Assembly (NCBI GenBank): GCA_024336345.1
Contig: JANFOG010000010.1
Span: forward strand, 1,240,001-1,304,000
DNA length: 64,000 nt
Direction of reading: 5' to 3'
DNA from: Mariannaea sp. PMI_226
Lineage: Eukaryota > Ascomycota > Sordariomycetes > Hypocreales > Nectriaceae
Both the position numbers and the translations under genes were made by a program. The notes under the pieces were generated by a model. That model had not been told where the DNA came from. It saw only the letters and a program-made list of their open reading frames with translations, and searched no databases. Positions 1 through 9,138 of the stretch are shown piece after piece (positions within the stretch are counted from its first letter, which is position 1; each line of letters begins with the position of its first letter).

Positions 1-332
1 CGGGCTGATCTTAAAACCAGTGTCCTCGCCGTAATCCCCCTCAACTATCACAAGCCATTTTCTTCTTACGTTACATTCTGATGTTAATGACAAGTCCACT
101 CGTACCAGATTTCAAAGTCTATCTCCCTACGGCCCCGTTGGCCCTGTCAGGTGTGTTATCCCGAAGTTCCATGGGCCCGGGTCCGGGATACCCCTTGACC
201 CAGACAACGCAAGCATATTATCGTGGATTTAATCGTGCTAATATGCCATGCAGTCCTACATTTGGAGTAAAAAAGTATTACTTGTGCAAGTAATTAATTT
301 TTCATCTCTCTTACAAAACCAATCACAGAACA
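1..332. other. Upstream region of the old yellow enzyme gene
   Basis: I see no gene here. The last 40 bases before the ATG at 333 are pyrimidine- and A-rich, as in fungal leaders. Open frames in this stretch show no recognisable protein. Confidence 0.5.
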
Positions 333-1650
333 ATGTCCACTTCAAACTCCGGGATGGACTCCCAGTTATTCCATCCCTTGACGATTGGCAATGGGAAAAT
401 CACACTGAAGCACCGGGTCATTCTCGCGCCGTTGACTCGAAATCGTGGAACTCCGTACAACAAGATCTCTACCTTGGAGAATCCAAACCGGGTGTGGCTT
501 CCAAATGAGCTCATGGTCAAGTACTACAGCCAACGAGCTACAGATGGCGGACTGATCATTTCTGAAGGACTTCCTCCTTCTCTAGAGGTAAGAAACACTA
601 TCATTGAAGGAAACAAGAAAAAAACGAAACTTTCCCGAGATTTGAACCAACTGACGCCATTCGAAGGGAAATGCTATGCCAGGTGTGCCGGGAATCTTTC
701 TTCAAGAGCAGGCCGATGGCTGGAAAGAGATAGTCGACGCCATTCATGCGAAAGGAGGATTCGTCTATGCCCAGCTCTGGCACTCTGGTCGGGCCAATAT
801 CCCACAGCTCACAGGAAGCCCCATAGCAGCCCCGTCGGCGGTTCCCTGGGACAACCCTGAAGAAACCTTCTCATACCCACCGCCTCACACGTCAGAGCCG
901 GTCAAGATTGCCGATCACCCACCGGTTGAGATAACTGTGGATCACATCGAGAGGACAATCAGAGACTACTGCAATGCGGCTAAGGCGGCAATGGATGTTG
1001 GCTTCGATGGCGTCGAGCTGCACGCCGGGAATGGCTATCTGCCGGAGCAGTTCTTGAGCTCGAATTCCAACCACCGCGTGGACGCTTATGGAGGGACTCC
1101 AGAGAAACGCTGCACCTTTGTGCTCGAGTTGATGGACGAGCTGGCCAAAACAGTTGGCGAAAATAACTTGGCCATTCGTCTGACCCCGTTCGGCCTGTTC
1201 AACCAAGCCCGCAGCCAGCAGCGTGTTGAGACCTGGGGCCATCTCTGCCGCGAGTTGAAGAGCCGCCATCCCGCTCTATCCTACGTCAGCTTCGTCGAGC
1301 CTCGCTACGAGCAGCTCTTCTCCGAGGCCGAGAAGCAGACGTTCCTCGACTCGTGGCAGCTCCCGGAAGTAGACCTGTCCATGTTTCGGACCATCTTTGG
1401 CTCGACGCCCTTCTTCTCCGCGGGTGGCTTCGACGACAAGAACTCCTGGGGAGTTTTAGAAGCCGGCAAATACGACGGCTTGCTGTACGGCCGGTACTTC
1501 ATCAGCAATCCCGACCTGGTAGCCCGGCTGCGCAACGGGTGGCCGCTCGCGCCGTATGATCGGTCGCGCTTCTACGGGCCGTTTGAGGACCCTGAGACTG
1601 GATACACGGATTATGCCGACTACAAGGAGCGCACATGCACCATTATTTGA
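333..1650 (+). CDS. Old yellow enzyme family NADH:flavin oxidoreductase
   Basis: Predicted FMN-dependent ene-reductase using NAD(P)H to reduce activated C=C bonds, cytosolic. Two exons, 333-587 and 667-1650, give 412 aa. The intron (588-666) starts GTAAGA, has a CTGAC branch point and ends AG, and joining is in phase 0. The join restores the family segment SLE|GNAMPGVPGIF that precedes the AQLWHSGR strand. The catalytic HxxNGY is present as HAGNGY (H204, N207, Y209), followed by the usual SNxHRxDAYGG substrate/FMN loop and a C-terminal YGRYFISNPDL phosphate-binding segment. Length fits the roughly 380-410 aa of fungal OYEs. It converges on the aldo-keto reductase gene. Whether it serves the nearby peptide locus or general detoxification is not shown by the sequence. 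Confidence 0.9.
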
Positions 1651-2457: not shown

Positions 2458-3572
2458 TTACTCATCATCGCCAAGGAACACAACGAAGCCGGTGGGCAGG
2501 AAAAGTCCGTCGCACACCTTGAAGCGATCCTTGATGCCATCAATGCCAGCCATCTCCTCCTCGGTCAGATCCCAGCCATCCAACTGTCGGTTGCCCTCGA
2601 TACGCGAGGGGGTCACACTCTTGGGGATGACGCTCCAGCCCTTCTGGAGACCCCACATGAGCAGAACCTGCTGGGGGGACTTGCCCTTGGCCTTGGCGAT
2701 GTTGAGCAGAGTCTCGTTCTTGTAGAGGGGAGAGTCGGTCGAGCCGAGGCATGAGTAACCGGTGCTGTGGATGCCCTTGGAGGTGTTGTAGGCGACGAGC
2801 TTGGGAGATGGGCGGCAAGGGTGCAGCTCAATCTGGTTGACAGCGGGAACAATCTAAAAGGACAACAGTAAGTCAATTGATCACTTGACGGGCGCTAATG
2901 ATGGAACCTCTCAAGACACAAAGACCTGATCTACCGTCTGGAGGCCAAATAACAAAAAAAAAAAAGGTGAAAAAAAAAGATAAAGGAAAACATACCGTGG
3001 TATCGGGGTGGCTCAACAGCTCCTCGAGGTGAGTGATGCCAAAGTTGGAAACACCAATGTTGCGCACCTTGCCAGTACCGACAAGCTTCTGCATCTCGTG
3101 CCAGGTCTTGACAAAGTTCCAGTCCTCATAATGCTTCTTCTTGTCGTCAGGGTTGGTTGAGCTGGGCCAGTGCATCAGGTACAGGTCGACGTAGTCGGTG
3201 CCCAGGTTCTCCAGACTGCGGGTGATGGCCTCGGGCACGCGCTTGTGCCAGGGGTTGTCGAGCTTGGTGGTAAGCCAGATCTGGTCACGGGGAACACCGG
3301 AGGCCCTAATACCGGCGCCGACATCCTTCTCGTTGCCGTAGGCGAAGGCAGTGTCGATGTGGCGGTAGCCACCACGGAGAGCAGCCTCCACGGCGGTGGT
3401 GACCTGCTCCGGGGGGGATTGCCAGGTACCGAGGCCAAGGGCGGGCATCTTGTCACCCGTGTTGAGGGTGAAAGTGCGGCTGTTTTAAAAACAAGATTAG
3501 CACATTATTGCGCGAAAATGGTGAGAGTTGGAGTGGAAGTGTGCCATACCTGGTCTGGTTGGGAGTAGTCAT
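2458..3572 (-). CDS. Aldo-keto reductase (Gcy1/glycerol dehydrogenase-like)
   Basis: NADPH-dependent carbonyl/aldehyde reductase of the AKR (beta/alpha)8 family. Three exons on the minus strand, 3572-3550, 3479-2996 and 2853-2458, give 300 aa. The 23-nt first exon is joined through GTATGG...CAG, the second intron through GTATGT...TTTTAG. The catalytic tetrad is complete: D50, Y55, K80 and H111 (DTAFAY, LTTK, LMHWPSS). Late NADPH-binding residues appear in VIPKSVTPSRI. The overall pattern (KMPALGLGTWQ start, GWDLTEEE end) is closest to the Gcy1/GldB glycerol dehydrogenase group known to me, but substrate cannot be fixed. The protein stops at DDE, which is near full length for the family (about 300-325 aa). 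Confidence 0.88.
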
Positions 3573-5807: not shown

Positions 5808-6472
5808 TTAGTTGGTAGCCTCCTTCTTCCACTGCCAGTTAGCGACACCGTCGGTATCGCGAGCTTCCTTCTTCCACTGCCAGTTGGCGACGCCATCGGT
5901 GTGAGCCTCGTCGCGAGCCTCCTTCTTCCATTGCCAGTTAGCAACACCGTCGGTATTGGCGGTATCACGAGCCTCCTTCTTCCACTGCCAATTGGCAACG
6001 CCGTCAGTAGTGGCCTCGCTGCGGGCCTCCTTTTTCCACTGCCAGTTGGCGACGCCATCGGTGTGAGCCTCATCACGAGCCTCCTTCTTCCACTGCCAGT
6101 TGGCAACACCGTCAGTGTGAGCCTCGTCGCGAGCCTCCTTCTTCCATTGCCAGTTAGCGACACCATCGGTAGTGGCCTCACTACGGGCCTCCTTCTTCCA
6201 TTGCCAGTTAGCAACACCGTCGGTATCACGAGCCTCCTTCTTCCACTGCCAGTTAGCAACACCGTCAGTGTTAGCCTCGCTGCGGGCCTCCTTCTTCCAT
6301 TGCCAGTTAGCAACGCCGTCGGTGGTGGCAGTGTCCCGAGTTTCCTGGTTCTATAAAGAGGGGACATAAGTATTTATATGTAGCAGTAAAGGTTGTGGTA
6401 CTGTACAGGAGTGGGAGCAGCGGCGGTGGATGCCGCAAGGGTCATGCACGTGAGAAGAACGGAAGCCTTCAT
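5808..6472 (-). CDS. Secreted ten-repeat peptide precursor (putative RiPP/KEP)
   Basis: Two exons on the minus strand, 6472-6407 and 6350-5808, encode 202 aa. The 56-nt intron (GTACAG...TTATAG) sits in phase 0 just after the signal peptide. Residues 1 to about 19-20 form a secretion signal (MKASVLLTC... ending ASTAAA). From residue 23 to the end there are ten units, each ending TDGVANWQWKKEA. The core is identical in all ten, while the 1-4 residue spacers vary (SEAN, D, SEAT, DEAH, DTAN), and codons vary synonymously. This is the layout of Kex2-processed repeat precursors such as UstA or PhomA (dikaritin RiPPs) and of alpha-pheromone precursors. KK is the likely kexin site and EA a likely dipeptidase trim. 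There are no Cys residues in the repeats, which argues against a standard Pezizomycotina alpha-pheromone. The divergent UstYa-family gene supports the RiPP reading. The modified product is unknown. Confidence 0.85.
5811..6320 (-). repeat. Ten tandem 45/54-bp coding repeats
   Basis: In-frame tandem array within the precursor gene. Full units are 18 codons. Units 3 and 10 are shorter by three codons because the spacer is a single Asp. Third-base differences among units (for example GAC/GAT, GGC/GGT, CAA/CAG in the core) show selection on the peptide rather than recent DNA copying. Confidence 0.93.
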
Positions 6473-8167: not shown

Positions 8168-9138
8168 ATGGGCAACATCGACGACAAAGACAGAGAGGAT
8201 AGTTCTCTTGATGAGCTAGGCCCTTTCTTGCCATCATCCTCAGTCCGAGAGGATGGCAAACGACATCGTCAGAAACGCACAATTCTGATATACTGCCTGG
8301 CGGCGATGCTTGCCGTGTCTTTAGGTGCCAACATCCTCACATACATTTATATACACAGCGACTCGTTTCTTGACCCAGCTTGTATATTGCATACACAACA
8401 GAATCGTATGTCTCTTTTTCCATTCTTATTTTCTTCTTCTGCTTCTTCCCTGTTCCTACTCTTCTCTCTCTTCATGCATCCCGCCACCCATGTATCAAAG
8501 CATACCTTGAATATGTTTTTTTTTGCTAACCTCCCTCAGCCACGCCTGTTGATATTCCATTACATTTCGGCTCTGTCCGCTATGATGGAAGGTTCCTTAG
8601 CAACTCATCATCTATTTACCGCCAGCCCCCATCCCCCGAGGTAGACGCTGCATGGGAAGCTCTCGGCACTACCTCTAAGCCTCTCATCCTGTCTCCATCA
8701 CAGGCCAAGCGGGCAGGACTCAGTCCTGATCATCTGAAAACCCCGTCTGGGGACTTTCCAACATACTTTGAGTTCGATCATCACTTGCACTGCCTCAACA
8801 TGGTGCGCAAGTCTCTCTTCTACAACTATGACTACTACTCCTCCCCAAACGCCACACATTTACACATCGGCAAGAATCACATGATTGTTGCGAAACACGT
8901 GACACATTGCATTGATATGTTGCGGCAAGTAATTCAATGTAAGCCTGATTTAGGCGTATTTGGCCTGTATTGGGTCAAGGATGAGGTGGAAGGTATAGAC
9001 GGCTCCTTTGTGGATTTCGATACCGACCATAAGTGTATCGACTGGGAGGCATTGAAGGGATGGGTTGCAAATCATCAGACTGAAGGGATGAAGGTGGAAC
9101 TAAGGGAGGGAGATAAGATTCTAGATGCTGCGCCGTAG
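8168..9138 (+). CDS. UstYa-family (DUF3328) oxidase, putative RiPP modifier
   Basis: Two exons, 8168-8405 and 8540-9138, give 278 aa. The intron begins GTATGT and ends CCTCAG, and the codon is split C|CC. Residues 1-37 are charged and cytosolic, and about 38-62 form one membrane helix (ILIYCLAAMLAVSLGANIL). The rest is a lumenal domain with the two signature HxxHC motifs, H160-H163-C164 (HHLHC) and H199-H202-C203 (HVTHC). N-glycosylation sites NSS and NAT are present. UstYa proteins catalyse oxidative cyclisation or hydroxylation in ustiloxin, phomopsin, asperipin and cyclochlorotine pathways. I chose the ATG at 8168 over the in-frame upstream AGG/ATG region because a CT-rich leader ends there. 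The nearest gene is the divergent repeat precursor, its natural substrate candidate. Confidence 0.9.

Follow-up and report, generated by a model that had tools for sequence, protein, structure and literature searches.

Enzymes of the UstYa/DUF3328 family cyclise peptides of the ustiloxin type, and copper-dependent macrocyclisation by a DUF3328 enzyme was reportedly described in a JACS paper of 2025. The pathways to ustiloxin and phomopsin combine a repeat precursor carrying Kex2 sites with UstYa-family enzymes, and they use a tyrosinase and a Tyr-Ile ether. Asperipin-2a (AprA/AprY, Aspergillus flavus) requires AprY, the one DUF3328 enzyme of this system, and the four-gene cluster as listed in the source contains no tyrosinase (PMC6514808). 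Tyr ethers close the rings of its FYYTGY core. In victorin of Cochliobolus victoriae, whose multi-core precursor is of the Kex2 type and has an aromatic residue at the core C-terminus, the ring is closed from Phe to Leu (PMC9233826).

The genomic extent of such systems was surveyed by Umemura in 2020. Kex2-processed repeat proteins (KEPs) were defined there as having three or more units in tandem, each at least 8 residues long and bounded by KR, KK, RK or RR sites; 7,878 were counted, 22% had DUF3328 neighbours, and the frequency of DUF3328 genes peaked at the position adjoining the repeat gene (PMC7329392). Among the repeat sequences of DUF3328-associated KEPs, 65.6% contained Tyr and 20.5% contained Trp, and one repeat type, P-3, combined Trp with Pro (PMC7329392). 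Here we describe a repeat precursor gene with a Tyr-free, Trp-containing core beside a UstYa gene in a 64,000-nucleotide stretch of the genome of the soil fungus Mariannaea sp. PMI_226, referred to as the window.

Results

A predicted spliced gene for a ten-unit repeat protein

The gene at 5808-6472 on the minus strand of the window is well supported, and its sequence indicates that the product is very probably a secreted repeat precursor of the Kex2 type. The initial annotation had proposed that a 66-nt signal-peptide exon is joined on this strand to a 543-nt exon encoding ten copies with an identical core. Indeed, removal of a 56-nt intron gave a protein of 202 amino acids, consisting of a signal peptide and exactly ten identical TDGVANWQWKKEA units (Table 1). 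The segment NQETRDTAT lies between the product of exon 1 and the first unit, and the last unit is followed by a terminal TN. The array was called independently by Tandem Repeats Finder (score up to 628). The hydropathy of the exon 1 signal peaked at 2.27 over residues 5-13, and the signal peptide would be cleaved at the A-x-A site. The precursor thereby has both an N-terminal ER signal peptide, as judged by hydropathy and the A-x-A site, and a tandem array of at least three units, each of 8 or more residues and bounded by dibasic sites, as KEPs do.

Table 1. Features of the precursor locus and of related loci in the same genome. Positions are those of the window unless a contig (C) or locus (L) is named.
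Feature	Position	Strand	Description
Precursor exon 1	6407-6472 (66 nt)	-	MKASVLLTCMTLAASTAAAPTP = signal peptide MKASVLLTCMTLAASTAAA then PTP; A-x-A site
Precursor intron (predicted)	6351-6406 (56 nt)	-	Phase 0; GTACAG...TTTATAG, directly after the signal-peptide exon
Precursor exon 2 with stop codon	5808-6350 (543 nt)	-	No Met
Repeat array	5817-6323	-	Ten TDGVANWQWKKEA units; spacers RSEAN, RD, RSEAT, RDEAH, RDEAH, RSEAT, RDTAN, RDEAH, RD
UstYa/DUF3328 exon 1	8168-8405	+	N-terminal tail and transmembrane helix
UstYa intron	8406-8539	+	GTATGT...CTCAG with CTAAC branch sequence; agrees with the database protein
UstYa/DUF3328 exon 2 with stop codon	8540-9138	+	Catalytic domain with HHLHC and HVTHC (HxxHC twice); PF11807, E 2.4e-40
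FMN oxidoreductase (PF00724)	294-1650	+	
Aldo/keto reductase (PF00248)	2458-3484	-	
UstYa clusters	C20, C2, C19, window, C7		Two genes on C20, two on C2 near the contig end, one each on C19, in the window and on C7
Precursor with DVNAPDW units	C20:3833262-3833593 (L024 5262-5593)	-	90 amino acids; KR joins 7 perfect DVNAPDW units, which follow a signal exon and a 62-nt intron; no Tyr in core; UstYa gene about 1.8 kb away
Precursor with DVDYIREG-type units	C20:3844217-3844750 (L025 7217-7750)	+	Secreted, many units, Tyr-containing core; about 1.4 kb from another UstYa gene
Precursor with GN[H/Y][L/V]W-K units	C2:1661178-1661639 (L020 4178-4639)	-	Unspliced, secreted, 154 amino acids, 9 units without internal dibasic sites; about 3 kb from the UstYa pair
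Precursor with NTNIYCFIDKR units	C19:3956559-3956970 (L022 5559-5970)	-	117 amino acids, 3 units alternating with KRCPPA segments; Tyr and Cys; about 2.5 kb from a UstYa gene
Tyr/Gly-rich repeat protein	C7:55670-56053 (L028 2670-3053)	+	Secreted; GKK segments and three copies of YGDYK; UstYa gene of C7 about 2.4 kb away
Canonical alpha-pheromone precursor	L029 1075-1908; units C20:3005177-3005845	+	6 WCERIGQSCW units

A splice is needed, as a stop codon (the TAG of the acceptor) immediately precedes exon 2, which, as had been claimed, contains no Met. Two GT-AG pairs retained the full signal peptide and all ten units, combining the donor GTACAG either with the acceptor TTTATAG (202 amino acids) or with AACCAG 6 nt downstream (200 amino acids); with the other pairs listed, the first unit was lost or the signal was shortened. 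The donor of the predicted intron departs from the usual GTANGT. All 3,406 YAG sites on both strands of the window, excluding its ends, were scanned for an ATG signal-like exon followed by a 45-90-nt GT intron and a long open frame. The scan returned 7 models at 3 places. Four belonged to the precursor, two of these leading into the rival frame +1 described below, and the other two places were membrane-protein genes according to Pfam, namely an amino-acid permease and an ORF with a rhodopsin domain. The same order of signal exon, short intron and repeat exon recurs in two more precursors of the genome, where the intron likewise adjoins the end of the signal-peptide exon (MRGLVPLVAFLSAVSGAPSPM/62 nt/KNGIIQRDVNAPDWKR... 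and MKITALLFATCATLAVAAPSTE-S/61 nt/PRNTNIYCFIDKR...).

A divergent UstYa gene beside the precursor

The precursor and a UstYa/DUF3328 gene are divergent, with 1,696 bp from ATG to ATG. A random position in the 42.2 Mb of the genome would lie within this distance of one of 7 UstYa genes with a chance of 0.06%. The protein obtained by joining 8168-8405 and 8540-9138 was 100% identical to the hypothetical protein BGZ63DRAFT_466409 of Mariannaea sp. PMI_226. Both HxxHC motifs were invariant in 15 of 15 aligned rows, which were chosen from 110 matches, and a hydrophobic segment, ILIYCLAAMLAVSLGANIL, was recognised in the sequence. The AlphaFold model of the protein, built on the 15-row alignment, had a mean pLDDT of 49.5 and was too poor to be relied on beyond the likely membrane helix at 26-65. 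The surroundings expected of a ustiloxin-type precursor were thus found as a nearby DUF3328 gene, an intact HxxHC...HxxHC motif and a hydrophobic membrane segment, the last being modelled as a helix with low confidence. The activity of CctR depends on the HxxHC pair; this enzyme binds two copper ions per monomer (2:1) and uses O2, and its catalytic part has been suggested to lie on the luminal side of secretory organelles (PMC12435403). A signal-peptide precursor would pass through this compartment.

Among 27 larger selected ORF pieces of the window and the 20 kb upstream, Pfam detected no tyrosinase, S41 peptidase, methyltransferase, PKS or NRPS. The four tyrosinase matches of the genome were located on C24 and C1 only, and the tyrosinase of ustiloxin/phomopsin-type clusters has no counterpart at this locus. 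A kexin P-domain is encoded on C25. An FMN oxidoreductase gene and an aldo/keto reductase gene lie on the other side of the precursor, and each may or may not have a tailoring role.

A tree was constructed from 66 rows, comprising the first 60 of 110 proteins at E <= 1e-5 and six paralogues of the same genome, two of which were pieced together roughly. Twelve proteins including that of the window formed one clade on a long stem with support of 100/100. The members were from Mariannaea, Trichoderma (seven records) and Xylogone sp. PMI_703, together with three environmental or unnamed sequences. Trichoderma orthologues of the window UstYa include T. arundinaceum TARUN_7446 and those of T. novae-zelandiae and T. 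asperelloides. The relatives in the clade were 59-70% identical to the window protein, and the next match by score was 36% identical. The spread of the clade is patchy, as Xylogone belongs to another class, the Leotiomycetes, and Mariannaea to the Nectriaceae; judging from these sequences, horizontal spread is possibly the cause. In the tree the window protein shared a side with the C7 paralogue and was placed apart from the five own paralogues that adjoin other precursors. These placements are unsure, as the five sit on long branches and the remaining rows were picked as matches to the window protein.

Repeat precursors beside other UstYa genes of the genome

A profile search with PF11807 across the 42.2-Mb assembly (25 contigs) gave 10 matched pieces, which were read as 7 genes in 5 clusters, a lower bound. 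The flanks of these genes were searched for ORFs of at least 40 codons with at least three copies of a 6-residue word. Including the window, signal-peptide repeat precursors were found within about 3 kb of four of the five clusters, amounting to five precursors. In the other UstYa flanks (76.4 kb) the detector returned 4 arrays, against none in 114 kb of control sequence, made up of 54 kb of the remaining window, the 20 kb that adjoins it upstream and 40 kb from other parts of the genome. For all four non-window precursors to fall in the flanks under equal density, P was about 0.03, a value obtained from a small sample and a small control. The C7 flank contained no array at the 6-residue-word setting. 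The Tyr/Gly-rich repeat protein on C7 was detected with 5-residue words only, and it was left uncounted because this setting also flags two long low-complexity ORFs in the 114-kb control.

The cores of three of the five precursors end in Trp followed directly by Lys (NWQW-K, NHLW-K and NAPDW-K). N-x-x-W-K is common to the NWQW core and the NHLW core on C2, for which kinship and convergence are both conceivable.

Processing signals and the pheromone question

The initial annotation had named a cyclic RiPP or a pheromone as the product of the precursor. As an alternative, the precursor might encode a linear signalling peptide of hormone or pheromone type that stays unmodified and is released by Kex2, Kex1 and Ste13, with the UstYa gene belonging to another pathway or being a chance neighbour; we consider this unlikely. 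KK occurs at the same place in all ten units and is directly followed by EA in each, an arrangement resembling the KR-EA of alpha-factor (PMC6339444). In the precursors treated in that source, such a STE13-like signature is typical of pheromones and absent from those of cyclic toxins and epichloecyclins, which speaks against a UstYa-modified RiPP (PMC6339444). A WXW motif is present in the yeast alpha-factor profile (PMC7329392). The position of the window UstYa away from the five precursor-adjacent paralogues, unsure as this placement is, likewise favours a linear peptide over a UstYa-modified one.

A STE13 signature consists of XA or XP dipeptides behind the Kex2 site; here EA follows KK in all ten units, and nine of nine spacers continue with RS or RD. 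Successive KK sites are separated by 16 residues in seven of nine intervals and by 13 in the other two, so EA plus spacer measures 7 or 4 residues, respectively; as these lengths differ in dipeptide phase, dipeptide trimming by Ste13 alone cannot yield one N-terminus. The fungus has a canonical alpha-pheromone precursor elsewhere (Table 1). The WQW core lacks its cysteines, Cys being absent from the TDGVANWQWKKEA unit, and is not of the WC...G...CW type known from filamentous ascomycetes. The pheromone pattern matched the genome 11 times; six matches belonged to the canonical gene on C20 and five were single and scattered. The window precursor was rejected as the alpha-pheromone gene of this fungus. 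DUF3328 neighbours are almost never found near pheromone/alpha-factor genes in the survey, which gives three exceptions (PMC7329392). The RiPP branch of the original proposal consequently gained from the adjacent UstYa gene, and the pheromone branch lost ground to the separate alpha-pheromone gene and to the rarity of DUF3328 genes near such genes.

It is far less probable still that the protein acts uncut or as long fragments, like a wall, repellent or effector-like protein in which KK is incidental. There is a precedent in Rep1 of U. maydis, a Kex2-repeat protein that is neither toxin nor pheromone and yields 37-residue wall peptides (PMC6339444). The fixation of KK in ten of ten units, the constancy of the core against the varying spacers and the adjoining UstYa gene argue against such a role here.

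Codon differences and the reading frame

The ten 39-nt units were all distinct as DNA and identical as protein. All 10 variable columns of the unit were third codon positions, a pattern with P of about 1.7e-8 if transitions fell at random. In the frame of the precursor, pairwise comparison of the units gave 186 synonymous and 0 non-synonymous codon differences. The array is open in two of three minus-strand frames and one of three plus-strand frames, and the other frames were examined in turn. Frame +1 of the minus strand, reachable via the donor GTACCA and with units ending in GRRR, was rejected with 0 synonymous and 165 non-synonymous differences. The plus-strand frame that has the same wobble positions gave 165 synonymous and 0 non-synonymous differences, but was interrupted by 4 stops. 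Of the remaining plus-strand frames, one contained 10 stops, and one was open but had no dibasic sites. As one plus-strand frame has the same wobble positions, the third-position pattern alone does not pick the strand. An uninterrupted frame and a conserved protein occur together solely in the frame of the precursor; selection, perhaps with gene conversion, is the likely cause of the protein-identical units. A neutral minisatellite with an accidental open frame and no gene, for which the open frames on both strands and the lack of a match in the protein set searched might be adduced, is extremely improbable in view of the exclusively synonymous differences, the in-frame signal exon and the UstYa neighbour.

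Searches for homologues and described relatives

No homologue of the precursor was found at E <= 10 in a set of 5.8 billion proteins, either with the full 202 amino acids (the 7,994 candidates sharing most words were scored) or with the first 100 (85 candidates). This set covers annotated proteins, and unannotated orthologues could escape the search. The precursor itself is apparently unannotated, as the set contains the neighbouring UstYa of the same genome and no match to it, in agreement with the earlier view that ATG-based calling misses the gene. Pfam also matched the array weakly to a protein of phage T7; at 0.0027 this match lay below the cut-off and was attributed to chance. In the open-licence literature, no relevant paper was found for the exact core strings. 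That literature also yielded no chemically described fungal RiPP with a Trp-based UstYa crosslink; the search concerned main texts, and the unit could be listed in supplementary tables.

Discussion

The proposal of a secreted Kex2-type repeat precursor that requires a splice was supported by the present analysis. We consider it likely that this precursor and the UstYa gene form the two-gene core of a RiPP pathway in which the peptide would be processed by Kex2 and modified by UstYa. The evidence for this reading includes KK-EA in ten of ten units, differences between units that are synonymous only, an in-frame signal exon, the divergent UstYa gene and the repeat precursors beside other UstYa clusters of the genome. 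The signal peptide would direct the precursor into the secretory pathway, where a Golgi protease of the Kex2 type may cut after KK at each ...NWQW-KK/EA... junction. A Kex1-type carboxypeptidase would then strip KK to give ten peptides ending in ...TDGVANWQW, and the N-terminal spacers containing EA and R may be trimmed to a common point. The calculated [M+H]+ values of candidate products are 1076.480 for TDGVANWQW, 860.405 for GVANWQW, 803.384 for VANWQW and 633.278 for NWQW; loss of 2H would give 1074.464, 858.389, 801.368 and 631.262, respectively. The membrane-anchored UstYa, with its HxxHC...HxxHC copper motif presumably in the lumen as in its family, would oxidise the core.

Tyr is absent from the whole 202-residue precursor. 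Since the core has no aromatic residue other than Trp, a Trp-involving macrocycle would be the likeliest product, closed perhaps within W-Q-W or N-W-Q-W, both of which offer an i,i+2 spacing; the exact bond is a guess. The two Trp of W-Q-W are spaced like Tyr and Ile in the Tyr-Ala-Ile of ustiloxin, and the residue order of bacterial darobactin gives its Trp-Trp ether this spacing as well. The crosslink of darobactin (PMC9055067) is matched in plants by the lyciumin-type BURP cyclases, which are copper enzymes with four conserved histidines and link the indole nitrogen of Trp to carbon (PMC12186524). In both cases a Trp side chain enters an oxidative crosslink, but the enzymes differ (radical SAM and BURP, respectively), and the parallel is one of chemical analogy, not of homology. 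That the UstYa copper enzyme closes a ring via tryptophan, and that the same idea is used at least three times in this fungus (NWQW-K, NHLW-K and NAPDW-K), is put forward tentatively, as a possibility that we rate below even.

As no tyrosinase is nearby, the route would resemble that of asperipin-2a rather than that of ustiloxin. The locus and asperipin-2a have in common a single DUF3328 enzyme, whereas the transporter and the isoflavone reductase of the latter were not seen beside this pair among the ORFs scanned, and its core is closed through Tyr. A Kex2-site repeat precursor with a UstYa-family enzyme is likewise found for ustiloxin and phomopsin, which differ from this locus in their Tyr-Ile ether and tyrosinase. 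Since a search of the core for Tyr found none, we class the gene product as a Kex2 repeat precursor with a DUF3328 partner, outside the narrow Tyr-ether dikaritins. The multiple cores and the aromatic C-terminal residue are features of victorin too, but the residue here is Trp. Sordariomycete alpha-pheromone precursors resemble the present one in signal peptide, repeats, dibasic sites, EA dipeptides and richness in Trp, and differ from it in their WC...CW core; the fungus has its own such gene elsewhere, and a DUF3328 gene adjoins the precursor described here.

The contrast that the initial annotation drew with Tyr-containing dikaritin cores was overstated, as victorin is closed via Phe (PMC9233826) and about one third of the DUF3328-associated repeats in the survey are without Tyr (PMC7329392). 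The precursor agrees with the DUF3328-associated KEPs of that survey in its signal peptide, its tandem units between dibasic sites and the adjoining UstYa (PMC7329392). It departs from them in using KK where KR is commoner, in a unit unmatched in the protein set and literature searched, and in Trp as the sole core aromatic. As the survey counted Trp-containing precursors with DUF3328 neighbours, the present pair has in silico parallels (PMC7329392); it is of a kind already counted, and its predicted chemistry is unusual.

Precursors whose start codon lies in a tiny exon and whose repeat exon is free of Met can escape gene finders, and each of them may feed a whole peptide natural-product pathway. 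With repeat precursors indicated beside four of the five clusters of this one genome, a practical route to further ones is to search the flanks of UstYa genes for spliced repeat ORFs. The fungus probably makes a small modified peptide that is not yet described. The pair offers a compact and testable system, in that the ten cores are identical, there is a single enzyme of copper type, and the core contains no aromatic residue besides Trp. If the core is modified, it would answer directly whether DUF3328 enzymes act on Trp, the known cyclised fungal RiPPs compared here being closed via Tyr or Phe. Ring closure through Trp, if true, would extend DUF3328 cyclisation from Tyr and Phe to indole chemistry, in parallel to the lyciumins and darobactin.
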